From: Paucidesulfovibrio gracilis DSM 16080
GTDB lineage: Bacteria > Desulfobacterota > Desulfovibrionia > Desulfovibrionales > Desulfovibrionaceae
Direction of reading: 5' to 3'
Assembly: GCF_900167125.1 (NCBI RefSeq)
Contig: NZ_FUYC01000001.1
Span: 124,001-188,000 of the forward strand
Length of the DNA stretch: 64,000 bases
Shown: positions 38,935-64,000 of the stretch, in pieces
Position numbering within the stretch: the first letter of the stretch is position 1
Layout: each line of letters begins with the position of its first letter
The notes under the pieces: model-generated
What the model saw: only the letters and a program-made list of their open reading frames with translations
What the model was told of the DNA's origin: nothing
The model's database searches: none
Made by a program: the position numbers and the translations under genes

Positions 38935-38941
38935 CAACCGT

Positions 38942-39298
38942 TCATTCGGAAGTATCGTTCTGGCCATGCTGCAGGAGCGCTTCCAACTCAGCTACTTTCT
39001 GCGTCAGAATGCGGAGCTGGTATTCATGTTTCGTCCGCTCAATGTCCATCGTCAGCATCTTGATCATCAACAACAGCACCGCGATGATGATGATCAGTAT
39101 CGGAGGATACCCGATCTGCAAATGGGAACCCAGCCAATCCACAAGGCCGGGAAATATGCCGAAAATCAAAACAAAGAAAAGACAAATCCCCCACCAGAGA
39201 AGATAGTTGTAGCTCAATTTCCCCTTTCGGAGATGGCGAAAAGCAACGTAGCAAAAACAGAGGGCCAACACGGCACCGATGATCCTAATGCTCGTCAT
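38942..39298 (-). CDS. DUF2304 membrane protein
   Basis: A 118-residue protein with three membrane helices (IIGAVLALCFCYVAF, LLWWGICLFFVLIFGIFPGL, ILIIIIAVLLLMIK) and a C-terminal coiled-coil-like helix (YQLRILTQKVAELEALLQ). This is the DUF2304 pattern, almost always encoded beside a GT2 glycosyltransferase in polysaccharide loci. Its start overlaps the end of the GT2 gene by 14 bases. It likely anchors or assists that glycosyltransferase; the exact function is unknown. Confidence 0.82.
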   Translation of the reverse strand: MTSIRIIGAVLALCFCYVAFRHLRKGKLSYNYLLWWGICLFFVLIFGIFPGLVDWLGSHLQIGYPPILIIIIAVLLLMIKMLTMDIERTKHEYQLRILTQKVAELEALLQHGQNDTSE

Positions 39299-47536: not shown

Positions 47537-49306
47537 TCAAATATCATCCTCCACATCCTCGTCCTGTGCCGACTCGTCGCGCCTTGAACGCAACCGATTC
47601 TCAATTTGTTCCCGAATGGCGGCAAACCATTCCATCCCCCCTACGCCGGTCAACCGCCCCCCCTCCACCAGGGCGATGACATCTTCCCCATATTCCCCGA
47701 CGGTACGCAAGCGACCTCTATGGGTTATGATAACGATTGGATTGCCCATGCTTCCGTTCAACAAAGCAACGCCGTCCGCCTGCAGCGACCGAAGACCACG
47801 CTCCTCGACAAAAAGCCACCGACAACCGGACCGTACACCACAAAGCAGCGCCAGTGTGAATCGCAGATTCGCATCCAGTCTCGACCAGGAACCCGGAGAA
47901 ATTATCTTGGCTGGTCCGTTCGGCAGGGCATTGTCGAGTCGTTCGGCTAGCTGAGCAGGCAATCCGATCGCATCCCATGTAGAGGCTTCCGGCTGGTTGA
48001 TACAATCCACTACCGGTCGATCAGGACACGAGGCTTTCCTTGTGACAAACTGCATGGATCGAATCTCACTCGTCAGTTGTTCCCCCCACAGATTGAGCAT
48101 CCCACCCAGTATGTTCCCCACGGAGTACCGACTTGGAAGTTCTTCACAAATGCAACCGACCCGGCATCCGGGCTTTAACTCAACGGTTTCCCCGGAATTC
48201 GCCGCTGGAACGGCAAGAGGATAGGATGATGGGGAAAAATCGTCATCAGACACATTCCCATTAAAGCCTTGCACAAACCGGGCATAACGGCTCACTTGAG
48301 GATAAAATCGATTGACGCCCGTTAAGCGCCCCAGCACTCCCTGAAGACCGGTCATGGCAACCCGGGCCGCCACCAGATAGACCAGCAACCGCCCCCAGCC
48401 CCCCCCTTCCAAAATGATGCCCCGGCCCATGACCCAGACGACCAGTGCCAAGACCAGCGCCATTACAAGGCCACTGGCAAACCGACTCTCGTCAACACTG
48501 CGAATACGCCCCTCGTAGGCATCCAGCTCCTTTTTGAACGGCCCATGCTCCACCAGGGCGTCCACCTTGCGCATATCCGCAGCCTGACCGATCGGGAGGT
48601 CTCTATATTTATTGATCAACAGGGCAAAGTGTTTACTTGTTTTTGGAGCATACCTTTCATACTGCAAGGAATAATCAGCGGCTCTAAAATTGATTCTTAC
48701 CTGAATCAGCAATCCAAAAGCCAAAATCAACAGTACACTCATCGTGAGAAACGGCTCGATGTAAACTAATCCTGCAAAAGCGATACACAGGCTAAAGAAA
48801 GGAATGGAAACACCAAGAAGCATTCGAAATACGCGCCCACAGAGACGTGCATCACTCCCTGCAAGGCGCAGTAGATATCTTTGCTCTCCGGAATCACAGT
48901 CTGATGGATCTAAAAAAAACGGTGCTCCGCTCGCCAGAAGGCCAAAAACACGTCGAGTACAATACTCATTATACCGGCGCATCATCCGAACTTCGCCCCA
49001 CCGGGACCAATATATTGCGCATGCGGAAAGGAGCAAAGAAAACAGCATGCCGCCGCCCATCACGAGCAACAGCTCCGTGGATGTCCTTGCATCCACGGTG
49101 TAGTCCAAACCAAACCATTGGATGGTGAGTAACTCGCCAGAGGCAAAATGTCGTGCATAGAATACAGCAATGGCAAACGCCTGGAGTTGAAAGGCAACCC
49201 CCAGAGCGCCGGCTCCCAGGACGACCGCCGAGAACAATTTATAGCGCAAGAACGAGTCCGAAACGATCCAACGTAGAAAAAGGAAATATCGCCTTACTGA
49301 ATCCAA
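47537..49306 (-). CDS. ABC-exporter-like membrane protein with degenerate ATPase domain
   Basis: A 589-residue protein with six predicted membrane helices (about residues 20-330) and a cytosolic domain. TTG start with AGGAAG eight bases upstream. The second half retains traces of an ABC ATPase: a SWSRLDANLRFTLALLCGV helix where LSGGQ should be, WLFVEE in place of Walker B, and VIITHRG as an H-loop. The Walker A loop is gone; the matching region reads KPGCRVGCICEELPSRYS. ATP hydrolysis by this chain is therefore doubtful. It may pair with an active half-transporter elsewhere or have lost transport. C-terminal tail is acidic. Confidence 0.72.
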   Translation of the reverse strand: MDSVRRYFLFLRWIVSDSFLRYKLFSAVVLGAGALGVAFQLQAFAIAVFYARHFASGELLTIQWFGLDYTVDARTSTELLLVMGGGMLFSLLLSACAIYWSRWGEVRMMRRYNEYCTRRVFGLLASGAPFFLDPSDCDSGEQRYLLRLAGSDARLCGRVFRMLLGVSIPFFSLCIAFAGLVYIEPFLTMSVLLILAFGLLIQVRINFRAADYSLQYERYAPKTSKHFALLINKYRDLPIGQAADMRKVDALVEHGPFKKELDAYEGRIRSVDESRFASGLVMALVLALVVWVMGRGIILEGGGWGRLLVYLVAARVAMTGLQGVLGRLTGVNRFYPQVSRYARFVQGFNGNVSDDDFSPSSYPLAVPAANSGETVELKPGCRVGCICEELPSRYSVGNILGGMLNLWGEQLTSEIRSMQFVTRKASCPDRPVVDCINQPEASTWDAIGLPAQLAERLDNALPNGPAKIISPGSWSRLDANLRFTLALLCGVRSGCRWLFVEERGLRSLQADGVALLNGSMGNPIVIITHRGRLRTVGEYGEDVIALVEGGRLTGVGGMEWFAAIREQIENRLRSRRDESAQDEDVEDDI

Positions 49307-49516: not shown

Positions 49517-52513
49517 TCACGCACGCCACGCATACGCAAAAGCAGAAGTGGGCGATTCAAACCAATTCAAGGGATAATAATCAAAACGATAGGAAAGAAC
49601 AGATTCCACGATTTCAGCAATATCAGGTATAAAATCGGCCAATTGGATCCACGCCAAAAAATGCCCCGGGTATATCGGCTTCATGACCAGCGACCCGGGA
49701 ACAGCCCGATGCGAAATGCGCGGCAGAAAGCGCTTATCCCCCAGATAAATGTTGCGTGCAAAGCTTCGCGCAAAACGAACCATATCACTCTCATCAAACA
49801 CCACGCCCATGTTGTGGCAATTTCTGGCAAATGCTATATTCAGATGGGCATGAGCAATATCTTCCACCAGCTGGCTCTTTTTCAGCTCTGCCAAACCATG
49901 CCGCCCCTTATAGGCCCAATAGCACGTGTCGCCTTCATCCGCTTGTATATTGGTCTTAAAATACGTTGCGATCCGGGTTCCGATGTCCGTCAACTCCGAG
50001 TCGTTCATCATCTGCCCGACCTTGATCGCAGCTTCAGCATAGCTGTTCTGGTGGTTCAACGGTTCATGCTCACCGCGTTCCACACGCCACAGATATGCTT
50101 GGTCCGGCCCTTCTTCGCGCAAATCATCAACAAACTCGTACAGAGCGTCCCGCGCAATCGCCAGATACTGTTCCCTAGCGTACGACTGATCACATTCAGG
50201 TGATTTGGACAACGCTTCAATCGCGGCAGCCAATGGATAGACGATACGACCTGCAGCTGTGGCATTACAAGTCCAGCGCGGCTTTTCATTCCCATCAGCC
50301 GCAGTATACCCCTTTCCCATGGCGTAGTTATCGTAATACGTAGATCCCCAGCTTTTGAGAACCCGTCCGCGGCATTGATCCACACGGCCGGTCTCACAAT
50401 CCCGGACCTGTGCAATGGGTTCAAAGGTATCAATAATCAACTTTGGGAATCTCGTATCTCCAGTGCGCTTCCAGGCCTCTAACGCGCATCTGGCCGAAGA
50501 ACTCCACGGCCAGGCGAACCCTTGTGTCTGTACACATTCATCCAGCGACTCAAGTCTCGTGCGGGATTGCATCCACTTTTTCAGATAACTGTAGAGCAAA
50601 TCCGGATCCGAGGGCATTCGCACGAATTTTCGATACGCAGCCCCCCCGTACGGTGGTTTGTTCCGTTCGGACGCGGCGATCTCGGCAACCCTCGCCACCC
50701 AGTCAGCCGGGCATCCCCGGTCCAACAGCATATCGGCGTCACTGGATTTGAACCGCCGTGAAAAGAGCACTTGCGCGACATAATGGTGATCATAGGCTGT
50801 TACCTTGCCCGGATCTCCGCTGTTTGGGAACGACTCTCTTGTAAGAGTGTTGAAGGTATGCAGAAAAGTATTGCCCGCAGGTACGTGGACCGATGTCCCT
50901 TCATCGTGTGTGCGATCCATCGGTGCATCGTCAATTATCCACAAGTCCTCACCTGATTTGACAGAGGCCGTCGCCGCATTCGCGACAGAAAAAACATGAT
51001 CCCCGCACCTTAAAACCAATTTTGGACGTTGTTTTTCCAGTTCCCGAATAAGCTTGGTCAGCTTTCTCCTCCAAGAGCATATTTGTGCTGGCAAGCGGAG
51101 GCAAAGGCGAGTTTTGAACGGCAGACCGCACAAAAAAGTGAACAGTCGCTTCACACCGGCAGGGTCGATATCATCGGTATGAAGCAGGCAGACTTCCGCG
51201 TAGGGGACTTCAGACAACGCAAGGTGATGCCAAGGCTTTGCCGCGTAGATCGTATTAAAAAAGCAAAAAAACTGTTCAAGGAACAAGGAATCGATATGCT
51301 TTGGGTCAGCAAAGGAATTGCAATCCGGTTGCACGGGGTGACTTGAGTAAAAGTGATTATTCAGCTTATCGCGCTGCAATTTTTTGCGTTGTTTTGTGTC
51401 AAATTTTTGTGCGACAAGCCGAAACCCTATACATTGGTCGTTAACGGCTAAATGTTGCCGCAGGCACAGTGCGTCATCCGTGAGCAAATAATACTTTTCA
51501 TTTGTCGGCCGGACTGGAAGCAGGGTGAGCAGACGGGGGTCCGCCTCTCGTGCGGCACGGCCCGCCTCGCCTTCCCAATCCTCAACCAAACGGCTCACCC
51601 TCAGCGGCATGTCCGCCACATCGCTCGGATAGACGCCTGTAAACATGACCGTTGTCTTGTCGTGCTGAATAGCATCGCTCCGACTGTACAGTTCGTAGGG
51701 CATGCCTCTGCCGAACCGACCTGGATGCAGGAGCACATGGTGCAAACCGGGACCGGCCAGCCACGCCTTAACATGCAACGCATCCCGCCCGACAACGACC
51801 TTGGCTTTGGGGGCAACAACGACCTTCATGTTTTGCCCTGCGGAATCATTGAAATTTTCCCATTTCAAAATATTCTTATTTTTGGGCCGGCCATTGTACG
51901 CCCAAATCAGTCCCCCCCCGCAATTCTCTATGTCCGCAAGCTGCGTATTCCCTTCTCCTCCGCCATGGGGAATAACCGTTCGAATATGAAAGAGTTCCCG
52001 CAGATCCTGCAGGTCGCGAACAAATATCTCTTGAGCCTGGGCAAGCACGCAGTCGCTTATGACTCCACGATACCGGCAACCAGAAGACCGCATTCGTGCC
52101 TGGCCTACCGCATTATGATGAAACCCAATCTCAAACCCCTCTGCCTCCAATTGACGGTACAGGTCACAATCCAAGTCCTCCACCGCCCAGGAAGTGACCT
52201 TCTGGGATGGATGCGACGCAAGAACCCGGCGAAAAAGATAAATACTTGAGACAACGTCATTGTCGTTTTCCCACCGGGCCATCACTTCCGTTTCAATGGG
52301 GTAGTGATCAATATGATGATCCAGAATCATATTGATCCTCTGCGCGTCAAAACGCCGTTCGTAGGCCTGGCTCATGGTTACGAATCGGACACCCCGCGAC
52401 TTTAAAATACGTATAAAGTCTTTGTAATACCTCCAAGTATTGTTGTAGTACTCTGGAAAGGCGTTCCAAATACGTTGATTGCAGTTGAAGTCAACTCCTG
52501 CTTTGGAACTCAT
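49517..52513 (-). CDS. Large protein: polysaccharide-deacetylase-like modules plus alpha/alpha-toroid domain
   Basis: A 998-residue cytosolic protein; its ATG overlaps the stop of the methyltransferase gene. Residues about 40-260 look like a deacetylase TIM-barrel variant: MILDHHIDHYPIETEVMARW, then GFEIGFHHNAVGQA and VIPHGGGEG, positions equivalent to NodB metal motifs but altered. A second, weaker module lies around 420-520 (VCLLHTDDIDPAGV). Residues about 650-998 are helix-rich with repeated Trp/Tyr (ARCALEAWKRTGDTRFPKLI, RWTCNATAAGRIVYPLAAAIE), like alpha/alpha-toroid lyases, GH88 enzymes or uronyl C5-epimerases. No family name fits fully; a glycan-modifying role is inferred. Confidence 0.6.
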   Translation of the reverse strand: MSSKAGVDFNCNQRIWNAFPEYYNNTWRYYKDFIRILKSRGVRFVTMSQAYERRFDAQRINMILDHHIDHYPIETEVMARWENDNDVVSSIYLFRRVLASHPSQKVTSWAVEDLDCDLYRQLEAEGFEIGFHHNAVGQARMRSSGCRYRGVISDCVLAQAQEIFVRDLQDLRELFHIRTVIPHGGGEGNTQLADIENCGGGLIWAYNGRPKNKNILKWENFNDSAGQNMKVVVAPKAKVVVGRDALHVKAWLAGPGLHHVLLHPGRFGRGMPYELYSRSDAIQHDKTTVMFTGVYPSDVADMPLRVSRLVEDWEGEAGRAAREADPRLLTLLPVRPTNEKYYLLTDDALCLRQHLAVNDQCIGFRLVAQKFDTKQRKKLQRDKLNNHFYSSHPVQPDCNSFADPKHIDSLFLEQFFCFFNTIYAAKPWHHLALSEVPYAEVCLLHTDDIDPAGVKRLFTFLCGLPFKTRLCLRLPAQICSWRRKLTKLIRELEKQRPKLVLRCGDHVFSVANAATASVKSGEDLWIIDDAPMDRTHDEGTSVHVPAGNTFLHTFNTLTRESFPNSGDPGKVTAYDHHYVAQVLFSRRFKSSDADMLLDRGCPADWVARVAEIAASERNKPPYGGAAYRKFVRMPSDPDLLYSYLKKWMQSRTRLESLDECVQTQGFAWPWSSSARCALEAWKRTGDTRFPKLIIDTFEPIAQVRDCETGRVDQCRGRVLKSWGSTYYDNYAMGKGYTAADGNEKPRWTCNATAAGRIVYPLAAAIEALSKSPECDQSYAREQYLAIARDALYEFVDDLREEGPDQAYLWRVERGEHEPLNHQNSYAEAAIKVGQMMNDSELTDIGTRIATYFKTNIQADEGDTCYWAYKGRHGLAELKKSQLVEDIAHAHLNIAFARNCHNMGVVFDESDMVRFARSFARNIYLGDKRFLPRISHRAVPGSLVMKPIYPGHFLAWIQLADFIPDIAEIVESVLSYRFDYYPLNWFESPTSAFAYAWRA

Positions 52514-53220
52514 AAGCGGGGTCCACGTAAGTTACGTAAAAAAATCCACGGCGCCCCCAGCACTTTCAGCCCATAGCGCCCACGATCGTCCTCATGTATC
52601 GGGTATGCCTTCCATCCGGCCTGCTCAAAAGCCCGTCTTTGGGCGATCAATTCGGGAACTTCTTTCAAATCCGTCTCTTCAGGATAACTTTTTACCAGAC
52701 CATTACGCAAAACAACCCACCCCCAGCCATCCGCTCCGAGCAGCCCCTCAAGCATTGCTACAAAGCCAGACAGGCTTTCCGGTCGATAATCTCCTGGATA
52801 TTGAACATTTTTCATCAAGATGCCATTAAATTTCGACGTATTGGTACCATGTATACTCATGACATCGTCTTCAATGACCTGAAACCCCAAGTGCCTGCCG
52901 AGCATGGCATGAACCGGACTGCGCTCAATGGCGACAACCTCGGAACCCAACTGGCGGGCAAGCATTGCAAAGCTGTAATGCCCCGGGCCGACCTCAAGAC
53001 ATCGCTTGTCCACGAAATGGGTATATTTGAAGAAGTCATTTATTACGTTGACGGTCTTTATGGCCCGATGATCACGAGCAACACGGTATCCCTTCATCGG
53101 CGATTGGCTGATGATCTCAAGTGAACGTTCATCCAACTTACAAACGCTTACGGCTCCCGCCCGGGACATCACCACTTCCCCACAGAGCGTCTGTTCGATT
53201 TTTTTTTGTTTTTTATTCAT
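52510..53220 (-). CDS. Class I SAM-dependent methyltransferase-like protein
   Basis: A 236-residue protein. KRCLEVGPGHYSFAMLARQLG is a motif I (ExGxG-type) SAM-binding loop, VVAIERSP is motif II with the acidic residue, and IEDDVMSI follows. The SAM-binding fold is recognisable, but the remaining catalytic residues are not, so O-methylation of a glycan is only likely. N-terminal 15 residues are Lys-rich. It overlaps the 998-residue protein gene by four bases and belongs to the same transcript. Confidence 0.68.
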   Translation of the reverse strand: MNKKQKKIEQTLCGEVVMSRAGAVSVCKLDERSLEIISQSPMKGYRVARDHRAIKTVNVINDFFKYTHFVDKRCLEVGPGHYSFAMLARQLGSEVVAIERSPVHAMLGRHLGFQVIEDDVMSIHGTNTSKFNGILMKNVQYPGDYRPESLSGFVAMLEGLLGADGWGWVVLRNGLVKSYPEETDLKEVPELIAQRRAFEQAGWKAYPIHEDDRGRYGLKVLGAPWIFLRNLRGPRL

Positions 53221-53283: not shown

Positions 53284-55755
53284 CTATTGGACGGCCTTAA
53301 CGTGGAAACTTTCCAGAATGGCTTCAAGCATTGCTCGGTTAAGCGAATCACCCCTCGGTTCCCCATTTACCCCCAAACTCGTGCCAACATCCTTAAGCTC
53401 TCCAGCCTTCAAAATCTCCCGTATCGGCTCCTGCACCGAAGCCGCATAGGTCCGGGCATATTGCCGCAAACGGTTATTCAGCCCGCCGGCCACTTCCGTA
53501 CGGCGTTCGAGCAACGAAGCCAGGGAAACCTTACCGGACCCCAAGGATACCATCTTTGCTGCAAGATACTCATTCCACGCAGCATCGGCCACATGAAATT
53601 TAGCCTGCACCGCACTAGCCCTCGAGGCCAACCGAACCAACTCATTGTCCAACAGGGTCTTGGCGGTATCAAAAAACCCTTCAGCCAACGTCTCAGCAAG
53701 TGCGTCATCCAGATTCACTGACCAGCTGGTTTCCTTGATCTGGTTCTTATTATTTTTAAAGTATACCTTCAGAACCTTGGTTATATTCTTGATCAATCGT
53801 TCGTCATTGGCCGCCCGTTTCTCTATTGTGTTCGTGTAGCATCCATTCAGCTTACCCACCAAGCTGGCGTCCACTGCATCCCATGGGTAATCGACACGAA
53901 TCATTTGCTCTTTTGCGTTGTTCCCCGAACGTATCCACTCATTGGACACAAGGATCGATGCCGATAAAGCATTCCACAAGAAACGCGAAATATTCTTTTT
54001 ATAAATTGCTGCTTCCCCGAACAGCGACTCTACTTTCCGCCTATCCAGTACGTTGAACAAGGCATCGGCCTTAGGGTTATGTAAAATCATATCGTAAAAA
54101 ACATCACGCAACTCGCGACCAACCATATACCGCCAATCTCCCCAAACACGCCCTCCCTTCGCACGCGACAACGGTTCTCGCCTTTTCCAGCCTGCAAGGC
54201 CTCCCGGTGACAGCGGGGAAACGCCTTTTTGCTCAAAATTCCAGCGTTTATCTTTGAAGGGCAAATCCAACAGCGCCTGGGGCGCAATGCGCTTCATCAT
54301 TTCAAATATCAATTCTTCCGACACCCTTTTCTCAACGGGAACGGATCGTGCCACTTTTACAAAGGCAGCGTCAGCATACGGCCAGTACTTACTTCGGCCG
54401 TTGACGGTAGCTGATTTGTAAATTCCACATGCATAGCGACCAAAACCAAACAGCAAATGGGCACGGTCAAGCACATCATAACAATTCTTTCCAATGGTAC
54501 CCTGCATCCATTGATCAATGTATTTCTGTTGGTAGTCTTCCCTATGCGCCGAGCGGATGTACTCTGCGCGACTCAGGTATCGATGTCGCAAATAATTCCG
54601 AACCTGCTCCGCATCATCGGTTTCCGGATCCATGAAAAGAGCATAACCGCCTCTGATCAACTCATCCCCCCCGCCTCCGCTTAAATGTGCATATTGTGAA
54701 GGAACGAAACGGTCGTTGAAAGCAAAATCCGGGACAACAAATCCGCGCAACACACCGCCGGAAACAAGAAGGGCATTGACATTGACTGCTACGGGGTCGG
54801 CGCTCACCACCGGATTCTTCAACTCTGAGGATGTGGGCAGGTACTCATTGTCGATATCCAATACGTCAGCAACTTTTTTGGCGAGTATCACGTTGGGATC
54901 GTCAGGCAACCCATGGGTGCTGGTCATAAAATCGGCCCCAACGTATTTCAGGGCCGCGGCCACCAGGCGACTGTCCCGCCCGCCGGAAAGCCCCAATTTA
55001 ATGGGCTTCCCAAGGTCACCAAAGCTTCTAATATTATCAAGGAAAATTGCCGTAAGCTCGTCGTAAAAGGCTTCGTCCGGCTCTCTACACACAGGGTTTG
55101 TCCAATTGGTATAGTCATCGATTCTCTCTACACTGCACTGCTCCTCCGGGGAAATCCGCAGTATGGAGTTTGCGGGGAGAATATTGAGACCGGCAAACGG
55201 CATTTTGTCATGGGCGAAAATTCCTGCCGTCAAAAACGGCATAAAGGTGCTCAGATCATATTCCGGCATTGTTTTTTGTGTCGCCGCCAAATGCACCAAT
55301 ACCGGATGATTGCCTACACAAACACAGCCTTCTCCCTTGGCCCAATACACCTGATCCACGTTGACAATGGTATTCCAGGCCGTAACAGCCCCCCTGTCAA
55401 CATCGGCCAGCAGCAACGAATAAATTCCGCCGAAACGCTGGGCAGTGCTGTTGTCCACAATTTCCGCGTGGAGAATCTCATCGACATTTTCCTTCAGCGA
55501 GGATCCATCGCGAATGTACCCGGAAGAAACCACTACCTTCCCGTCATGAGCCTGAAATAATCTTTTTTCGGTATCCGCAGTGGTGTCGTTGTCCCATACG
55601 AAAACACTGAGGTGGTCGTTCTCCGCATGCTGTACAGCAGTGCTGTAATCGTGAATACGAAACGGCAGGACATTTTCCGCACAAGAGTGGATATGTGGGG
55701 CAAAATCGTGAGTTACGTTCCGCTCATGACTCAAAAGAGCAAGATATACACGCAT
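53284..55755 (-). CDS. Asparagine-synthetase-like protein lacking the N-terminal Cys nucleophile
   Basis: An 823-residue protein; AGAAGGAGATGGA precedes the ATG at 55755. The N-terminal 200 residues resemble the Ntn glutaminase domain (QRFGGIYSLLLADVDRG) but start MRVYLAL, so no catalytic Cys2 is present. The synthetase domain has the PP-loop KLGLSGGRDSRLVAAAL, an Arg instead of the usual Leu/Val, and HLSGGGGDELIRGGYALF. A C-terminal extension of about 270 residues is not recognised. Ammonia, free or from another subunit, would be the nitrogen source if it acts as an amidotransferase; other ATP-dependent ligations are equally possible. Confidence 0.7.
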   Translation of the reverse strand: MRVYLALLSHERNVTHDFAPHIHSCAENVLPFRIHDYSTAVQHAENDHLSVFVWDNDTTADTEKRLFQAHDGKVVVSSGYIRDGSSLKENVDEILHAEIVDNSTAQRFGGIYSLLLADVDRGAVTAWNTIVNVDQVYWAKGEGCVCVGNHPVLVHLAATQKTMPEYDLSTFMPFLTAGIFAHDKMPFAGLNILPANSILRISPEEQCSVERIDDYTNWTNPVCREPDEAFYDELTAIFLDNIRSFGDLGKPIKLGLSGGRDSRLVAAALKYVGADFMTSTHGLPDDPNVILAKKVADVLDIDNEYLPTSSELKNPVVSADPVAVNVNALLVSGGVLRGFVVPDFAFNDRFVPSQYAHLSGGGGDELIRGGYALFMDPETDDAEQVRNYLRHRYLSRAEYIRSAHREDYQQKYIDQWMQGTIGKNCYDVLDRAHLLFGFGRYACGIYKSATVNGRSKYWPYADAAFVKVARSVPVEKRVSEELIFEMMKRIAPQALLDLPFKDKRWNFEQKGVSPLSPGGLAGWKRREPLSRAKGGRVWGDWRYMVGRELRDVFYDMILHNPKADALFNVLDRRKVESLFGEAAIYKKNISRFLWNALSASILVSNEWIRSGNNAKEQMIRVDYPWDAVDASLVGKLNGCYTNTIEKRAANDERLIKNITKVLKVYFKNNKNQIKETSWSVNLDDALAETLAEGFFDTAKTLLDNELVRLASRASAVQAKFHVADAAWNEYLAAKMVSLGSGKVSLASLLERRTEVAGGLNNRLRQYARTYAASVQEPIREILKAGELKDVGTSLGVNGEPRGDSLNRAMLEAILESFHVKAVQ

Positions 55756-56215: not shown

Positions 56216-57997
56216 TCAAAATCCCCACCAAATCGGATGCGTGAGAACCCCAACGACCTGGCATTCTGTTCCCGCCACGCGCTTGATGGCTCGTCGGCCT
56301 CTCGCATTCTTCCGCACACGGAGATTTCCACCGGAATCTGTGTGATAAATATTCCTTAACGCGTCATAGGCCTCATATTCGAGACCGAAATCACGCATGG
56401 AGTGCTTCCCCAGAGACATTTCAAGGATTCTATCCCCCGAATCATACGCTAGGGTTCGTGGTCCGCCGAACCGTTCATCACAACATTCTGCAAACAACTC
56501 CCAATTTCGGAAGTTCAATGTTCTGCACAAGCCGTCTCCATGGGTGGACGTACCTTTGATCTCAACACCATTCTCCCTGAAGTATGCAAGCTCCTGTTTT
56601 AGGAGTGCTACAGGATCGGCCGCATGTTTCAGAGCTGTCGCCACCAAGTTGTTATGGAAATTGATTTCATGGCCGAGGCTGCTCAAATACCGTGCTGTTT
56701 CAATCAAATCGGAAGTATGCCGCATTTTACCGTCAACAAGTTTGCCATAGTACCAGGCCGTATGCAGCAAGCAATACGTTGCACGTATTCCGCGTTTATG
56801 CTCCCATTCTGCAATCTTCCTGGCCGTAACATGGTCGTGATCCACATCATGCCGGATCACCAATACATCTTTTTCAAGCTTTGGCCCGTCACTGTATAAC
56901 TCTTGCAACGTCATCAATTCATACGCACCACCAAGGTATGGTGCGAGTAGTTCTTCATAATCTTCGGGCCAGTATTTCCGCTTGTTGGAAAGCCATTTCT
57001 GTTTGGCCTTGAACTCATCGGCCGGGATGTCGTAGGTCAAAAGCGAGTCCAAGTCAGCGGCGGAATAGCTCAATGCATGCATCAACTCTCCGCAACGCGA
57101 CTCAATCCCCTGCACTTCGGACCGTGTGAGATCACGAACATATCGTCCAACACTGTTACCGAAGAATCCCTTTTTCAAATTAGCAGCGTTGGGATGGGAG
57201 GAATCCAGAATTCTGGCTTTGGAATCCTGAAACGCAAGAACGGTCTCTTCCATTTCCAATCCCACCATGCCGAAGACCTCGGAAAGAGCCGCCCCAGGAT
57301 CCTGCACCAGATCCTCATATCGAAGGATCCGGCACTGATCCGGATGCTGGGCTTGAAATGCCTGGAACGCTTCAATTCCTTTTACCCATCGCTGGGCCGC
57401 TGCCCTAAGTCCCACGCCGAAATCCGCAGCCATGAGCGATGCATATACATCACGAGGATCTCGTACGATATAGACAAAATACGAATTTGGATACAAAGCA
57501 AGATAGGTTTCGTACGCGGTATCTGTGACCTTAAAGCCCAAATGCGATGCCCCGTTCCGCACTCCGGGTTCATTCAGGACAGACGACAAAAGCGCCAGCC
57601 GCAGCGAAAGAGAATCGAGACGGTCGCCATTGGACACGGCGTGTTTTTCCAGCACATTCAAAAACTCATCAATCCCAAGCCCCAGTCGATGGCAACGGGA
57701 AACCCATTTTCCAAGCTCCACTTGTCCACTTTGCCGCAGGAGCGAACCAGCCTTCTTCAAGTTTGTGGCGTCAGGTTGCACACTTCGAACCTGGTCGACC
57801 ATATATTGAATGCCAGGCTGTTCCTTGAACAACAACTCATACCCCATGCACACCCGGCTGTGTGCGTCCAAGGCGGCGGAAAGCAGCGTCGTGCCGGAGC
57901 GTGAGACACCACAAGGGAATAGCATGGGCGTCCGGTCAATTGAGACGGTGTCCTTGCTTTTATGAAATCCTAACCGTTTTATGAACTGAGCAAACAT
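56216..57997 (-). CDS. Sulfotransferase-deacetylase-like fusion (sulfotransferase first)
   Basis: A 593-residue two-domain protein. Residues about 20-330 are a PAPS-dependent sulfotransferase: MLFPCGVSRSGTTLLSAALDAHS is the 5'-phosphosulfate loop and YIVRDPRDVYASLMA the 3'-phosphate region. Residues about 380-593 are a polysaccharide-deacetylase-like module with VLVIRHDVDHDHVTA, LGHEINFHNNLVAT and KGTSTHGDGLCR, where the NodB TFDDG and HxxxH motifs are altered. The domain set recalls, in a different order, animal heparan N-deacetylase/N-sulfotransferase. Coupled by a one-base overlap to the sulfotransferase gene upstream. Substrate unknown. Confidence 0.72.
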   Translation of the reverse strand: MFAQFIKRLGFHKSKDTVSIDRTPMLFPCGVSRSGTTLLSAALDAHSRVCMGYELLFKEQPGIQYMVDQVRSVQPDATNLKKAGSLLRQSGQVELGKWVSRCHRLGLGIDEFLNVLEKHAVSNGDRLDSLSLRLALLSSVLNEPGVRNGASHLGFKVTDTAYETYLALYPNSYFVYIVRDPRDVYASLMAADFGVGLRAAAQRWVKGIEAFQAFQAQHPDQCRILRYEDLVQDPGAALSEVFGMVGLEMEETVLAFQDSKARILDSSHPNAANLKKGFFGNSVGRYVRDLTRSEVQGIESRCGELMHALSYSAADLDSLLTYDIPADEFKAKQKWLSNKRKYWPEDYEELLAPYLGGAYELMTLQELYSDGPKLEKDVLVIRHDVDHDHVTARKIAEWEHKRGIRATYCLLHTAWYYGKLVDGKMRHTSDLIETARYLSSLGHEINFHNNLVATALKHAADPVALLKQELAYFRENGVEIKGTSTHGDGLCRTLNFRNWELFAECCDERFGGPRTLAYDSGDRILEMSLGKHSMRDFGLEYEAYDALRNIYHTDSGGNLRVRKNARGRRAIKRVAGTECQVVGVLTHPIWWGF

Positions 57998-58908
57998 TAC
58001 ACGCCAACTCCCAGATACCCGTGGGTTTTCATATGGTCACAACAAAGCTCTTCAATCTGCTCTACCTGCTCCGGTGCCAACTCTTTTTTCCAACGCCCGA
58101 TACTCGACGTAAAAAACGGTTTCTTCAGGTTCTCCGCATTCGGATGCCCAAACGTATGCACGCCGGCTTTGGAACGATAAAATTCGTACACGCCCGCCTC
58201 GGGGTCTAATTGGAGAAACTCGAGGATACCTGCAATCTCTGCATGAGCGTTGCGGACCAAATCTTCATAACGGAGCACTCGTCCCCGACCCGGAACATGC
58301 TCGCAAAACAGTTCAAAGGATTGGATATAATTGTTCCAGGCATGGCAGACATCCGGTATGGTCCGATTGAACTTCCGCTGAAGGTGCGAGGCAACAACGT
58401 CCCGAGGATCGCGCAGGATATAGATCAGGCGCCCGTGAGGAAAAAACGTGTACGCCTTCTCAACAGAGGAAATGTTCAGCTTAAAGCCATAACGGTCGGC
58501 TTTTCTTTTGGTCGCGCCCACGCGGGAAGCAATCCAGGCAGTGAACAAACGGTCCTGAAACGTGGCGATCTCCTTCATCCCCGCCCTGGCCATCTCTTCC
58601 AAGACCTGCAACATTTCATCTTCTTCAAGGCCAGCCCGGTAACACCGTGTAAAGAAAAGCCCCTCCTGAGCGTATCCGCTCCTACGCAAGAGTTTCCCGG
58701 TATTCGAAAAATCTCCCCCGCTAAGAGCCGTACCCTGCCGCAATATCTCCACTAATTGTTCGGGACCGGGCATCACAGCCGGAATCAACTCATATCCCAT
58801 TGAAACGTTGCTATGGGAATCAAAAATGGTTGTGAGCAGCGTTGTGCCGGACCGGGACATGCCGCATGGAAACAGCATTGGATCATGCGAAATGATCATC
58901 ACTCGCAT
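57997..58908 (-). CDS. PAPS-dependent sulfotransferase
   Basis: A 303-residue sulfotransferase. The 5'-PSB loop MLFPCGMSRSGTTLLTTIFD is nearly the same as in the fusion at 56216-57997, and LIYILRDPRDVVASHL is the 3'-phosphate-binding region. Residues 260-290 (FHTFGHPNAENLKKPFF) match the end of the fusion's sulfotransferase domain (HPNAANLKKGFF), so the two are paralogs. The gene overlaps the methyltransferase gene by 10 bases. A cytosolic enzyme that sulfates a glycan precursor is the likely role; PAPS-making cys genes are not in this window. Confidence 0.85.
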   Translation of the reverse strand: MRVMIISHDPMLFPCGMSRSGTTLLTTIFDSHSNVSMGYELIPAVMPGPEQLVEILRQGTALSGGDFSNTGKLLRRSGYAQEGLFFTRCYRAGLEEDEMLQVLEEMARAGMKEIATFQDRLFTAWIASRVGATKRKADRYGFKLNISSVEKAYTFFPHGRLIYILRDPRDVVASHLQRKFNRTIPDVCHAWNNYIQSFELFCEHVPGRGRVLRYEDLVRNAHAEIAGILEFLQLDPEAGVYEFYRSKAGVHTFGHPNAENLKKPFFTSSIGRWKKELAPEQVEQIEELCCDHMKTHGYLGVGV

Positions 58909-59597
58909 TCCCTTTTTTTTGTCACCAATACATGATTGTTTTTAATGAAAAAATATTCCACAACATCAATGGACTCCGCCCGCCAGAATGGAGCGAGAAA
59001 GGACTGTATCGTATGATGGAATTTACCGCCTTTGAAATCCACGGCGTTGCTTTTTCGCGGACAGCGGTTGTAGGGTAGCTTCACGTTCTCCATTGCCGTA
59101 TACGTCCCCATTTGTAACGGCGTAGAGGCAAAAATCGAATAAAAACGTCCCCGGGTTGAAAGCTTTGTGTGCCAGTGCTCAATCACATCCACGGTTTCAG
59201 GCCGATCCATTTCATGCTGATTGTACAGCCCCGGCCCTCTGGCAAAAATCAAATCAAAAAACGCATCGGGATACGGAAGTTTCTCTTCCACGTCGCCTAC
59301 GATAAAATTTCCGGCGTCCCCGCTCTGCGCCATCAAGGTCCGAGCCTTGTCGATCCCACCGCTTGAAACATCAATGCCAAACAGCTCAAGACGAGGCTTC
59401 AGGCATTTCATCCCATAAGCCCATATTCCGTCCCCACAACAAAGATCGAGCACCCGGCCCGTTTCAGGAAGGTTCACGTACCGGGTCAGCCAATTTCGAA
59501 CCAGTTCCTCCGTGTATTGAAACCCCTCCTGGCTTTCATAAAACCTGTCCGTGGCGCATAAGGCATCGTCCGGTGTTTCGTATATTTTTTGTCCCAT
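58899..59597 (-). CDS. Class I SAM-dependent methyltransferase
   Basis: A 232-residue protein with a clear SAM fold: VLDLCCGDGIWAYGMKC (motif I), FGIDVSSGGIDKAR (motif II, Asp), FIVGDVEEKLPYPDAFFDLIFARG (motifs III-IV). Methylation of a sugar or glycan terminus is the probable role. Its end overlaps the sulfotransferase start by 10 bases, making a translation-coupled chain from 61643 to 56216. Confidence 0.82.
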   Translation of the reverse strand: MGQKIYETPDDALCATDRFYESQEGFQYTEELVRNWLTRYVNLPETGRVLDLCCGDGIWAYGMKCLKPRLELFGIDVSSGGIDKARTLMAQSGDAGNFIVGDVEEKLPYPDAFFDLIFARGPGLYNQHEMDRPETVDVIEHWHTKLSTRGRFYSIFASTPLQMGTYTAMENVKLPYNRCPRKSNAVDFKGGKFHHTIQSFLAPFWRAESIDVVEYFFIKNNHVLVTKKRECE

Positions 59598-59615
59598 TCT
59601 GACCTTGCTTTTTTC

Positions 59616-61643
59616 TCACCATTCTACATGGGTCAACGGTAATTTGTGCAATGTAAACGAGCGGACAACCACGCTCGCGGGCAAGGCTGTCGCAGACATA
59701 TACACCGCGAGGTTGAACCGAACGGCCTCGCTCCCCGGACGAAACGAAAAGACATATTCGCTCTTGTCCGAACGAAGACGAACAAGCCCCCGCTGCTCCA
59801 GCTGATTGCCCTCTGCATCATAGAGTAAACAGATAACCCGCGCCGTGTCCCCTGCCGCAATGGACGCACACAGCTCTGCCCGATAATAATGTGCCAACTC
59901 GGACGGCCATCCGGCATCATTGGTTGTGCGGTGCCACGCGCCGCCGCCAAGTAGAACATGGGCATGCCGCCCGCCGTGGGGAACGATTTCAAGCACTCCT
60001 GACGCATGCCGCACGGTGCACCCTGGCGAAGCAGAAGAAGCTGCAATGTCCACCGGCAATGGTTCTGGAGGGTTCGGCTGGGCAGTGCTTCGCTGGGACT
60101 TGGGAGGCTTTTGAAACAACAACGCCATCTGACTCAGCCAAATGAGCAGTCTGCCGGAAATATGATACCCAAGCTCTTTTTTCAATGGATCGCAAATCGC
60201 ATGGTATCGTGCCTTTTGCTTCCGTGACCATCGGCGATAGGCAGGGAATATCCCTTTTTCCCCAGCATTGATCGTTTTGGAAAAATACGGTTTTGCAAGT
60301 CGAGGATAAAAACCAATCCCAAGCTGCGAAAGGACGATTTCCAACTCCTTTGGACCGCGAATCATCCTATCAAAGCGTAAAGAAAGAGCACACGCCTGCA
60401 TAAGCCGCTCGTTCACAAGTCGAACATACCAACACGCCTTTTCAAATGGTCCCATTTCTTCCCAGTGCTCAACCTCCATCACGGGATGCCGATCGTCTTC
60501 GGGCGTATCGTACCAACGGCGGTTCAACAGTGATGAAACGACATCAGCCGGTCGCCGATGCAGATGAATCAACGTTGATTCGGGATAACACGCTGTAAGC
60601 TCCGGCAAAAATTCTTCCAAATAGACATTGACCTCGGCATAGTCGCGTTTGAGGCGTTCCACCCAGGGCCGAACGTCCAGCAACAGCTTTTTCACGCTGT
60701 GGGGGTCAGTCTGTAGCTCCAGAAAGCCGTCGGCCGTGCGCTTGTCCTCCACAAGTTCGCCCTGGACCAACCGATGGTTGAGCATGCACTCATGCCGACT
60801 CGTCACGGAAGACGCCGCATCCAACACCGTGGACAACCACTTGGAACCGGAACGAGCCGTTGACAAGAAAAAAAATATCTTCTGGCTGCCCTTCCAATGT
60901 TCCGGATGACACAACACCTGATGCCGCCCCGTGTCCATGGAAACACTGCAGGGGTCCGGACTGCGGGTCCACTCCCCGCCGCTGTCCGTATAATAATGAT
61001 CAAACGGTACATGCATGGCATCGTATTCAAGGCCCAACTCCGCCATAGAAGTAGACCAAAGTGCAAACCCGGCCCCATCGGGCCGCGTAAGCACGTGATC
61101 CAGGGGATATTGCAGTCCACCTTGTCCGTCGGGACCGGGTACCCCTTCTGGGGTCAACCCATTTTCCGACTCCTGTGGGGATGCGGGACGAAGCTCCCGA
61201 AACTGCCAGTAGTTGATAAACTGCCCATCGTAACAGGATTTGTCGCCATGTGCGGACATTCCCTTGATCCGGATCCCGTTCCCACGCAACCAGTCAAGCA
61301 TCCGCTTGAGATAGGCTGCAGGGTCAGACGTCGCCCCGGTGTACCACTGGGCCAAAGCGTTGCAATGCAGTCCGACTTCGTGACCAAAATCCTGAAGCTG
61401 CAAGCATTTTTCAATAATATTTGCGTCATTCCAATACGGTGCATCAGGCAGGATATAATATGTCGAACGTGTATTGCGTCGATATTCAAAACAAGCCATC
61501 TCCAGCGCCATATCGATACTATGATCAACATCATGCCGTAAGGCTACAGCATGACTCCCTGGTTCTGCCAAACGCAGAAAGGAGACAGGAACGGTAACGC
61601 CCAGGTGGTCAAGATACGTTTCATAGCGATGGGATAAGGCCAT
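59616..61643 (-). CDS. Deacetylase-like-sulfotransferase fusion (deacetylase first) with C-terminal beta domain
   Basis: A 675-residue three-part protein. Residues about 25-230 are deacetylase-like (ALRHDVDHSIDMALEM, FGHEVGLHCNALAQW, IKGMSAHGDKSCY), the same pattern as the C-terminal half of the fusion at 56216. Residues about 255-520 are a sulfotransferase: IFFFLSTARSGSKWLSTVLDAAS and TLIHLHRRPADVVSSLL. The last 130 residues are a beta-rich domain (HARVICLLYDAEGNQLEQRG), possibly carbohydrate binding. Domain order is opposite to the other fusion. The GT4 gene on the right overlaps by one base. Confidence 0.72.
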   Translation of the reverse strand: MALSHRYETYLDHLGVTVPVSFLRLAEPGSHAVALRHDVDHSIDMALEMACFEYRRNTRSTYYILPDAPYWNDANIIEKCLQLQDFGHEVGLHCNALAQWYTGATSDPAAYLKRMLDWLRGNGIRIKGMSAHGDKSCYDGQFINYWQFRELRPASPQESENGLTPEGVPGPDGQGGLQYPLDHVLTRPDGAGFALWSTSMAELGLEYDAMHVPFDHYYTDSGGEWTRSPDPCSVSMDTGRHQVLCHPEHWKGSQKIFFFLSTARSGSKWLSTVLDAASSVTSRHECMLNHRLVQGELVEDKRTADGFLELQTDPHSVKKLLLDVRPWVERLKRDYAEVNVYLEEFLPELTACYPESTLIHLHRRPADVVSSLLNRRWYDTPEDDRHPVMEVEHWEEMGPFEKACWYVRLVNERLMQACALSLRFDRMIRGPKELEIVLSQLGIGFYPRLAKPYFSKTINAGEKGIFPAYRRWSRKQKARYHAICDPLKKELGYHISGRLLIWLSQMALLFQKPPKSQRSTAQPNPPEPLPVDIAASSASPGCTVRHASGVLEIVPHGGRHAHVLLGGGAWHRTTNDAGWPSELAHYYRAELCASIAAGDTARVICLLYDAEGNQLEQRGLVRLRSDKSEYVFSFRPGSEAVRFNLAVYMSATALPASVVVRSFTLHKLPLTHVEW

Positions 61644-63421
61644 CAGTTGACGTACAACCCCTTATATATATTTAGTAATTTTTCGGCTTCATTTCCCCAA
61701 TGAAACTTTCCGGCAGCATTGACCGTATTCGCACGCATCTGCCTTGCTGCCTCCGGATTCTCTTTGATGTCCGTGATGGCACGGGCGATATCGGATGGAT
61801 TCTCCGGATCAAAAACACCTCCCACGGAAAACTCTTCGATTACCCGTCGCATTTCCGGGAAGTCACTGGCAACAACCGGCAGCCCGGCATTGAGGTATTC
61901 AAAAACCTTGTTCGGCGAGCAATAATAGTAGCTGAGGCAAACATTTTCTATCGGTGCGATGCCGAGATCGGCACACGAAGCATACGTCGTCACCATATCG
62001 GACGGCACAGGACCAAAAAAATCAAAACGTTCGTGAACACCATGCTCTTCGGCAATACGCAACAGCGATTCCGTGTACTCTGCGGTTCCATACCCCATGA
62101 AAACCAAATGGCAATCCGGCAACAGCGCCATGCTTTGGATCACCTTCTCCAACCCTCTGTTAAAGGTAATACCGCCACAATACAGTATCAAAAATCGCTG
62201 CTGCGGGATACCAAGTTCCCGCCGAAGCGCTTCCGACTCAACGGCTGCTTCGGTGGACTTGGACAAAGGAGCATTCATGATGACATGCGGCGTGGGAATC
62301 CGATACCGCACTGCAAGCTCCTTTGCGATGGTGTCGTTTACCGTTATAGCCGCATGGCAGCGCCGTATGAGAAATTTTTCCATGCTGGCAAGCAGGAAAT
62401 CATTGATCCGGCCTCGGGGTTTGGTCCTGTTTCTGTTCAGATACAACTCATGGGAGTCATATACAAGCTTGGCCTTGTGCTTGCGGGCCAGCCACCACGC
62501 GACAGGCAGCGTGTTCAAGTCATGGGCCTGATAGATATCCGCAGGTTCGTCCGCAACGGCCTGCATACCGTTTGCATAAAAATTCTGGAAGCAAAGCGGG
62601 CGATGATACCGCAAAACGAATTGCTTGATGTGCTCATAGGACCAGTTCTGAAATTGGTTGCCACGCCTAACGCGCCATTGTCGAATTTGGGCGTACCGAC
62701 GCTGTACGACTCTTTTGCATAGCACTATGCCGCCTTCCAGTCTCCCTCGCAATGTTTTACAATACCTATTCACTCTTCTCTGTAGAGCTATCCCTGCTCG
62801 GGAAAAAGCAGTGGTCAATCGATGCCAGTACAACTTCGAAGTCTGTCCTCGCAATGCCGATTGCATTACGAAAGCATCTCCTGCCCCCCCTCTGCCGACA
62901 GCCAGTCGCAGCACAAAGAGTAACGACCCGACAAAATTAACCCCTGCCCCAAAAGCGAGATAGAGAAACTTCAGGACAACCCAACGCAATACGGCAGCAA
63001 TCCGGGCTATGGCAACCTTCAAAAACGAGAACATTGTACTCATGGCATGCGAAACCAGCCTGACAATCTTGCTGAAACCGGATAAGAAAAAATTCCAAAA
63101 CGATGTCAACAGGTTTGCAAACGCGGCAAGAAAAGATGTCGAACCACGACGCCTGAGTCGCGCCAGCATTCTCAGGTGCGGTGGGTCAAGAACAACTCGG
63201 ATAACCCGAAAACCTTCCACGATTTCACGCGACGCAGTCGTTTTATCCTTGAATGCCACGACGCGCACGTCGTACCCCTGCTCCGTCAGCGTCTTGGCCT
63301 CTTTGAGCACCCGGGAATCGTGCGTAAAATTGTTGAAAACGAACATGCACACACGCCGTCCACAGCCAAGACTGGACCGCTCTGCCTCAGGCTCTTCTCC
63401 TGTCCGACGCTTACTAACCAT
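61643..63421 (-). CDS. Glycosyltransferase family 4 with a ~170-residue insertion
   Basis: A 592-residue protein. GT-B halves are at residues 20-85 (RVCMFVFNNFTHDSRVLKEAKTLTEQGYD) and 285-592 (YQAHDLNTLPVAWWLA, VYDSHELYL, LYCGGITFNRGLEKVIQ, CSPNKVFEYLNAGLPVVASDF). Between them an insertion of about 170 residues contains hydrophobic helices and an Arg/Gln-rich part (RRRYAQIRQWRVRRG), perhaps a membrane anchor. The enzyme resembles WsaF/CapM-like sugar transferases. It ends at the start of the fusion gene. Confidence 0.78.
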   Translation of the reverse strand: MVSKRRTGEEPEAERSSLGCGRRVCMFVFNNFTHDSRVLKEAKTLTEQGYDVRVVAFKDKTTASREIVEGFRVIRVVLDPPHLRMLARLRRRGSTSFLAAFANLLTSFWNFFLSGFSKIVRLVSHAMSTMFSFLKVAIARIAAVLRWVVLKFLYLAFGAGVNFVGSLLFVLRLAVGRGGAGDAFVMQSALRGQTSKLYWHRLTTAFSRAGIALQRRVNRYCKTLRGRLEGGIVLCKRVVQRRYAQIRQWRVRRGNQFQNWSYEHIKQFVLRYHRPLCFQNFYANGMQAVADEPADIYQAHDLNTLPVAWWLARKHKAKLVYDSHELYLNRNRTKPRGRINDFLLASMEKFLIRRCHAAITVNDTIAKELAVRYRIPTPHVIMNAPLSKSTEAAVESEALRRELGIPQQRFLILYCGGITFNRGLEKVIQSMALLPDCHLVFMGYGTAEYTESLLRIAEEHGVHERFDFFGPVPSDMVTTYASCADLGIAPIENVCLSYYYCSPNKVFEYLNAGLPVVASDFPEMRRVIEEFSVGGVFDPENPSDIARAITDIKENPEAARQMRANTVNAAGKFHWGNEAEKLLNIYKGLYVN

Positions 63422-63475: not shown

Positions 63476-64000
63476 CTACATGGGCTTCAGGCCAGTGCCC
63501 GCCTTGGCATACGCGGCCCCGCAAACGGCACAGGTGAGATCGTCTTCCAGCTTTTCGCCGCAAGCGCAAACCCAGCCGGCCCTTTTTCCGGGATTTCCCA
63601 TCACCAGTGCATGATCCGGAACATCCCGAGTTACCACAGCGCCTGCCCCGACAAAGGCGTACCGACCAATGGTGTTGCCGCAAACGATCGTGCAGTTCGC
63701 TCCCAACGTCGCGCCTTTCTTCACCAAGGTCGGACGTACCTGGTCCATGCGGCGAATATGCGCGCGCGGATTGAAAACATTCGTGAACACCATCGACGGG
63801 CCGCAAAACACGTCATCTTCCAGGGTGACACCCTTGAAAACAGAAATATTATTCTGAATTTTACACCCGTTGCCCACAGAGACATCCGGTCCGATCACCA
63901 CGTTTTGCCCGATATTGCAGCGCTCCCCGACACGGCTCCCTGGCAGGATGCGCGAAAAATGCCAGACCTTGCTTTCGGCTCCGAGATCGGCTCCTTCATC
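63476..64000 (-). CDS. WbpD-like left-handed beta-helix N-acetyltransferase, cut by window edge
   Basis: The coding frame runs off the right edge; at least 174 residues are present. Hexapeptide repeats form a left-handed beta helix (NIGQNVVIGPDVSVGNGCKIQNN), followed by DDVFCGPSMVFTNVFNPRAHI, as in WbpD/WlbB enzymes that N-acetylate UDP-3-amino-3-deoxy-GlcNAcA-type sugars. A zinc-ribbon-like end CACGEKL...CAVCGAAY is present. The start codon is outside the window; the GTG at 63899 is only an in-frame codon. It suggests the glycan contains an amino-sugar uronic acid. Confidence 0.75.
   Translation of the reverse strand, partial: DEGADLGAESKVWHFSRILPGSRVGERCNIGQNVVIGPDVSVGNGCKIQNNISVFKGVTLEDDVFCGPSMVFTNVFNPRAHIRRMDQVRPTLVKKGATLGANCTIVCGNTIGRYAFVGAGAVVTRDVPDHALVMGNPGKRAGWVCACGEKLEDDLTCAVCGAAYAKAGTGLKPM

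Follow-up and report, generated by a model that had tools for sequence, protein, structure and literature searches.

Animal NDST (heparan N-deacetylase/N-sulfotransferase) starts heparan sulfate, and glycan N-sulfation is textbook animal chemistry. Here we describe two bacterial proteins, denoted ST_DA and DA_ST, in which a deacetylase-like domain and a sulfotransferase domain are joined in one chain, once in each order. The genes lie in a window of 64,000 nt of Paucidesulfovibrio gracilis DSM 16080, which is akin to the Desulfovibrio sulfate reducers (NZ_FUYC01000001.1, positions 124,001-188,000, forward strand), and all coordinates are window positions unless preceded by a locus number (L). 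The arrangement is NDST-like, new and by appearance convergent, and with moderate confidence we consider the two proteins to work like NDST. As regards bacterial N-sulfation, the exopolysaccharide of Pontiella (Verrucomicrobiota) was reported to be 75-80% N-sulfated, the enzymes were not identified and PF13469 genes were suspected (PMC7356697). An NDST fusion of a deacetylase and an N-sulfotransferase, engineered for E. coli from other domains, appeared in 2026; no natural bacterial fusion is named in the introduction or the screening section of that paper (PMC13353177). Titles and the beginnings of abstracts covered by our literature search (subscription papers were outside its scope) contained no description of a bacterial deacetylase-sulfotransferase fusion.

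Two such fusions with opposite domain orders had been proposed from the sequence alone (hereafter the original prediction). Both open reading frames are present on the minus strand, the Pfam assignments agree, and the deacetylase-like regions of the two share 34% identity (E about 1e-21). The Sulfotransfer_3 matches extend over residues 24-251 of ST_DA (2.2e-21) and 258-442 of DA_ST (4.5e-7), and both domains carry motifs for 3'-phosphoadenosine-5'-phosphosulfate (PAPS). DA_ST has in addition a third domain that resembles carbohydrate-binding modules (CBM), which the original prediction had not seen.

56216..57997, minus strand: ST_DA, 593 aa, sulfotransferase followed by a deacetylase-like domain (open reading frame, Pfam, model, relatives)
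57053..57940, minus strand: sulfotransferase domain of ST_DA, residues 20-315, motifs SRSGTTLL and RDPRDVYAS (Pfam, structure match)
56219..56980, minus strand: deacetylase-like domain of ST_DA, residues 340-593 (sequence comparison, hhalign, domain tree)
59616..61643, minus strand: DA_ST, 675 aa, deacetylase-like, sulfotransferase and CBM-like domains (open reading frame, Pfam, model, relatives)
60891..61643, minus strand: deacetylase-like domain of DA_ST, residues 1-251 (alignments, hhalign to CE4, model)
60159..60884, minus strand: sulfotransferase domain of DA_ST, residues 254-495, PAPS motifs TARSGSKWL and RRPADVVSS (Sulfotransfer_3; TPST1/2, Z about 12)
59634..60077, minus strand: C-terminal CBM-like beta-sandwich of DA_ST, residues 523-670 (CBM29/CBM16/CBM22/CBM4 structures; Foldseek E about 1e-5, Z about 11)

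The PF13469 scores of 77.6, 77.3 and 30.8 bits (cut-off 27), together with the PAPS motifs, identify PAPS-dependent sulfotransferases. The structures nearest to the ST_DA sulfotransferase are the tyrosylprotein sulfotransferases (TPST2, Z 21.6), followed by bacterial polyketide sulfotransferases (curacin sulfotransferase, Z 20.7); the sulfotransferase domain of NDST1 (1nst) is at Z 12.3. A supply of PAPS is possible, since the genome has an APS kinase.

The deacetylase-like domain belongs to a wide family that is covered by neither Pfam nor NCBIfam, several polysaccharide deacetylases being among its weak matches. As the original prediction had noted, the deacetylase motifs are altered: RHDVDH and GHExxxH are present in both fusions, and (T/A)HGD and L(T/C)HP are likewise common to them.

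56837..56854, minus strand: ST_DA RHDVDH, residues 382-387 (H383 and D386 invariant; end of strand E377-385)
56654..56674, minus strand: ST_DA GHEINFH, residues 442-448 (G442 and H448 invariant; strand E444-449)
56534..56545, minus strand: ST_DA THGD, residues 485-488 (H486 invariant; just past strand E480-485)
56234..56245, minus strand: ST_DA LTHP, residues 585-588 (alignment, model)
61521..61538, minus strand: DA_ST RHDVDH, residues 36-41 (H37 and D40 invariant; end of strand E33-39)
61365..61385, minus strand: DA_ST GHEVGLH, residues 87-93 (G87 and H93 invariant; strand E89-94)
61242..61253, minus strand: DA_ST AHGD, residues 131-134 (H132 invariant; just past strand E126-131)
60903..60914, minus strand: DA_ST LCHP, residues 244-247, counterpart of CE4 motif 5 (global hhalign)

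The original prediction had named the lack of a metal site as part of what would speak against it. On sequence, candidate residues are in place: H383, D386, H448 and H486 (ST_DA numbering) are invariant in 36 out of 36 family sequences. In the AlphaFold models of both fusions the four residues lie where successive strands end on their C-terminal side, or just beyond, which in these models looks like the placement in a barrel active site; the predicted local distance difference test score of the DA_ST model is about 90 across residues 10-130.

The relation to the CE4 (NodB) deacetylases emerges only in profile comparisons. PF01522 gave no match above the cut-off (best E 0.2, in 1 of 17 members), the CE4 motifs TFDDG and H(S/T)xxH are absent, and searches of PDB sequences with single and profile queries returned noise only, with the polysaccharide deacetylase 4m1b among the weak rows. 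When compared by hhalign to CE4 sequences from related genomes, the domain was aligned with a probability of 88%, and the unfused group with 94.7%; as controls, CE4 profiles in reverse gave 0.0-0.3% and a profile of sulfotransferases gave 0.2%. Taken by group, the values were 80-83% for DA_ST, 12-65% for ST_DA and 17-20% for the more distant third copy, which is found in the protein P998 (see below). RHDVD is aligned to TFDDG, i.e. D386 corresponds to the metal-binding second Asp and Val occupies the position of the catalytic base. H448 aligns with the first motif-2 His, the second one is missing, and H587, the terminal His of LxHP, falls on the motif-5 His in the global alignment. The invariant His of HGD is new relative to CE4. 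The domain is probably a divergent member of the CE4 clan and a putative amidohydrolase. If the domains were non-catalytic and bound the glycan only to position it for the sulfotransferase, the absent base Asp and second motif-2 His would be accounted for. We regard this as quite improbable, however, since H, D, H, H are strictly kept across 36 diverse members, stand-alone relatives are found in glycan-degradation loci, and for binding a CBM-like domain is already there.

A scan of GTDB genomes, of the kind suggested in the original prediction, yielded eleven loci, and in other phyla the same architectures are again found within one protein. Halochromatium glycolicum has a single protein (L042:1425-3449) with the architecture of ST_DA and 43% identity to it over 584 aa, and the same locus has a DA_ST relative (37% over 684 aa). 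Single proteins in L037/L039, L042, L043 and L045 are 34-46% identical to DA_ST over 678-713 aa; this architecture is present in Planctomycetota (L043, L045) and in metagenome-assembled genomes of the Planctomycetes-Verrucomicrobia-Chlamydiae (PVC) group (L037, L039). On a Methylophilaceae chromosome (L044) the DA_ST relative is 36% identical over 489 aa and its C-terminus has no clear similarity. In L037/L039 the two parts of ST_DA are separate adjacent genes, and L038 has a DA_ST of 398 aa, seemingly truncated within the sulfotransferase part. A frameshift or chimeric assembly as the origin of the fusions was considered and ruled out: both fusions are single proteins in other phyla and therefore not artefacts of frame or assembly. 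We note that the module contigs L037 and L039 are almost the same and come from two metagenome-assembled genomes of the casp series, one assigned to Verrucomicrobia and the other to Planctomycetota, which points to probable mis-binning; because of this near-identity they were counted once, as a single locus.

The family as a whole is sparse and mostly unfused. Within the order, 14 of 347 genomes have members (E 1e-4); for the phylum the count is 14 of 395 (1e-6), and for the phylum to which the L037 genome belongs it is 11 of 388 (1e-8). With DA_ST as query, nothing was matched in phage records, and the matches in plasmid records were short and archaeal. The first of two viral scans was without match, and the second found only unfused deacetylase-like proteins, on five IMG/VR contigs (L097-L101), one of which (L098) also has a tape-measure-like gene. 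Other domain combinations were also seen. A 970-aa protein (L040:4961-7873) consists of tetratricopeptide repeats, a methyltransferase, a deacetylase-like domain and a second methyltransferase, and a 1220-aa protein (L046:4075-7737), which adjoins a deacetylase-like gene, reads as parts of an ATP-binding cassette (ABC) transporter ATPase, a sulfotransferase and a methyltransferase.

In the tree of the deacetylase-like domains all sulfotransferase-fused copies fall into one clade (99/99), which splits into ST_DA, DA_ST and a Desulfovibrionaceae group of ST-DA order; the latter clusters with copies that are unfused or joined to a methyltransferase. In the tree of the sulfotransferases the domains of DA_ST make up a long clade of their own (100/100), and the Desulfovibrionaceae copies are apart from ST_DA, the deep forks being weak. 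In other words, the deacetylase-like domains have separate sulfotransferase partners. By these trees at least two independent joins are well supported, and three are probable.

The relatives also hint at the substrate. In two Desulfovibrionaceae they are joined to an amino-sugar formyltransferase of the ArnA type, an enzyme that acts on amines. Verrucomicrobiota relatives (L134-L138), several with apparent signal peptides, lie beside GH20, GH123-like, GH127 and AXE1 genes and, judged by this gene content, make up a catabolic branch of the family in glycan-degradation loci; GH20 and GH123-like families act on N-acetylhexosamines. These two independent contexts suggest that the domain acts on amino sugars, exposing the amine. 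O-acetyl esterases are also known among the CE4 relatives, as is the deformylase ArnD, and the domain could accordingly be an O-deacetylase or an ArnD-like deformylase, with an ester or formyl group swapped for sulfate. The formyltransferase-fused relative and the AXE1 acetyl esterase next to one relative are in line with this, but the GH20 and GH123-like neighbours and the WlbB-like N-acetyltransferase at the head of the window gene series speak against it, and we hold it to be unlikely.

The fusion genes are embedded in a longer series on the same strand. The original prediction had also placed a stand-alone sulfotransferase and a methyltransferase in a tightly packed series; this agrees with the Pfam assignments and with the spacing of the genes. 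ST and MT sit between DA_ST and ST_DA; the glycosyltransferase and DA_ST genes overlap at 61643 (TGATG), MT and ST overlap by 10 nt, ST and ST_DA by 1 nt, and the gap from DA_ST to MT is 18 nt.

57997..58908, minus strand: ST, stand-alone sulfotransferase, 303 aa (Sulfotransfer_3 2.7e-21; 50% identical relative in L037/L039)
58899..59597, minus strand: MT, class I methyltransferase, 232 aa (Pfam; 52% identical relative adjoining DA_ST in L044)
61643..63421, minus strand: GT4-type glycosyltransferase upstream of DA_ST (Pfam; relatives near DA_ST in L039 and L043)
63476..64000, minus strand: WlbA-WlbB-like fusion (3-dehydrogenase and hexapeptide acetyltransferase), cut by the window edge (complete copy at L096:1477-3051)
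53284..55755, minus strand: asparagine-synthase-like protein of the same gene series (Asn_synthase 1.3e-8)
52510..53220, minus strand: MT7, putative methyltransferase, 4-nt overlap with P998
49517..52513, minus strand: P998, 998 aa, third deacetylase-like domain (about residues 40-300) and a long C-terminal part with no fold assigned (relatives L042:3609-6944 and L044:13187-14110)
47537..49306, minus strand: P589, membrane protein (relatives in L037/L039 and L044)

The deacetylase-like domain of P998 is another addition to the original prediction. From its sequence, the second half of P998 was suspected to be a heparan-like C5-epimerase; this idea was dropped, as neither Pfam nor PDB gave a match and none of the other 246 searched genomes of the order had a relative. 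P589 gave no Pfam match above the cut-off and no useful match in a PDB profile search; from its sequence it reads as a putative degenerate ABC half-transporter. The asparagine-synthase-like protein lacks, by eye, the usual glutaminase Cys at its N-terminus and is possibly an amide-forming glycan enzyme. About 10 kb away from the module there is an STT3/PglB-type oligosaccharyltransferase (36922-38967; STT3-PglB_core 4.2e-8), because of which the glycan might be protein-linked. The window also encodes a Sodium:sulfate symporter family protein (32927-34471; PF00939, 2e-82), which may carry dicarboxylates instead.

Much of this series is conserved elsewhere. Within about 6 kb, L044 has DA_ST, MT, ST, a P589-like protein (matched by an alignment of 18% identity and by gene position), MT7 and a P998-type domain. 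In L042 a single protein combines MT7, the P998-type domain and an FkbM methyltransferase, and L039 contains DA_ST, sulfotransferases, DA, P589 and a relative of GT4a. The gene content defines a recurring module of the fusions, ST, two methyltransferases, the third deacetylase-like protein and the putative ABC-like membrane protein, which is found in Desulfovibrionaceae, Chromatiaceae, Methylophilaceae and PVC-group genomes. WlbA-WlbB-like relatives (51-58% identity) are present in 6 of the 7 searched genomes that have the module or a close member of the family; as WlbB-like genes are common in surface-glycan loci, this link is no more than suggestive.

We propose that ST_DA and DA_ST act in the cytoplasm as bifunctional enzymes, which de-N-acylate and then sulfate a surface glycan; this is rather probable to our mind, with catalysis, metal and substrate inferred. 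PAPS is cytosolic and no signal peptide was seen, which suggests the cytoplasmic site. The deacetylase-like domain would strip an N-acyl group, most likely N-acetyl, from an amino sugar of the nascent and probably lipid-linked glycan, and the joined sulfotransferase would next sulfate the same sugar or its neighbour; this order of steps is presumed. The freed amine would be the preferred acceptor, giving an N-sulfated sugar as NDST does in animals, and the CBM-like domain of DA_ST may hold the chain. ST, the two methyltransferases and the third deacetylase-like protein would add more decoration, and the ABC-like protein may move the product. N-sulfation is the leading hypothesis for the product, though a tentative one. 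The fuller proposal, i.e. natural bacterial N-deacetylase/N-sulfotransferases that arose independently of animal NDST by two or three joins, with either domain first, that N-sulfate amino sugars of a surface glycan, and whose module has spread between phyla, is likewise put forward with considerable reserve.

Deacetylation followed by O-sulfation departs from this proposal at the last step only: the charged amine would stay free and the sulfate would go to a hydroxyl, either on the same sugar or on its neighbour, resulting in a zwitterionic glycan. This is a possibility to be reckoned with, if a somewhat doubtful one. The structures nearest to these sulfotransferase domains belong to O-sulfotransferases (TPST, curacin and olefin-synthase sulfotransferases), and L044 has the stand-alone ST with no ST_DA protein. 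On the other hand, the same type of domain is joined repeatedly to sulfotransferases and, in relatives, to an amine-acting formyltransferase, and this suggests the amine as the next substrate. The recurring fusion or adjacency with sulfotransferases, which involves different partners, also favours bifunctional enzymes.

Several points weigh against the proposal of bifunctional enzymes. The sulfotransferase type does not separate N- from O-sulfation. Catalysis is not transferable from CE4, because the base Asp is replaced by Val/Ile and the second motif-2 His is gone. The models of the two fusions rest on 7 and 10 sequences, and fold searches with the whole fusions matched mostly the sulfotransferase and CBM parts, not the deacetylase-like domain. 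Foldseek aligned DA_ST with human NDST1 (8chs) over both domains in the same order (E 3.9e-4), but with TM 0.20 and an rmsd of 22.6 over 643 columns the similarity is weak.

These loci offer candidate genes for bacterial N-sulfation, which was reported for an exopolysaccharide without known enzymes (PMC7356697), and with them come a conserved gene set for mutant work and a named cultured species, Halochromatium glycolicum, for analysis. If active, the fusions would provide prokaryotic parts for heparin-type synthesis, for which the expression of active NDST in bacteria is a bottleneck according to PMC13353177; the engineered fusion described there is similar in that a deacetylase is joined to an N-sulfotransferase.

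Compared to CE4/NodB (PF01522), the window domain shares profile similarity and counterparts of the second Asp of motif 1, the first His of motif 2 and the His of motif 5; it differs in having RHDVD for TFDDG, one motif-2 His and the extra invariant His of HGD, and it is below Pfam detection. With Sulfotransfer_3/tyrosylprotein sulfotransferases (PF13469) the window proteins share the fold and the PAPS motifs, but they are joined to a deacetylase-like domain and lie among glycosyltransferases. As for NDST, the original prediction of NDST-like proteins stands for the domain combination within a conserved glycan-modification module and not for family membership. ST_DA and DA_ST are outside the NDST family: HSNSD, the NDST deacetylase, gave no Pfam match at E up to 1 with whole proteins or up to 10 with 17 domains, and the NDST1 residues D319, D320, H389 and H393 (adjacent Asp-Asp, two His four apart) contrast with RHDVD, a single motif-2 His and a different invariant set in the window domains. 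The window proteins have no N-terminal NDST domain and no membrane anchor seen in the sequence, DA_ST carries the extra CBM-like domain, and the order of ST_DA is reversed. The Sulfotransfer_3/TPST-like type of the sulfotransferases, the different active-site pattern and the trees with two to three joins all point to an evolution separate from animal NDST, as had been predicted. What is shared with NDST is a deacetylase or deacetylase-like domain and a PAPS-dependent sulfotransferase in one chain, in DA_ST even in the same order.

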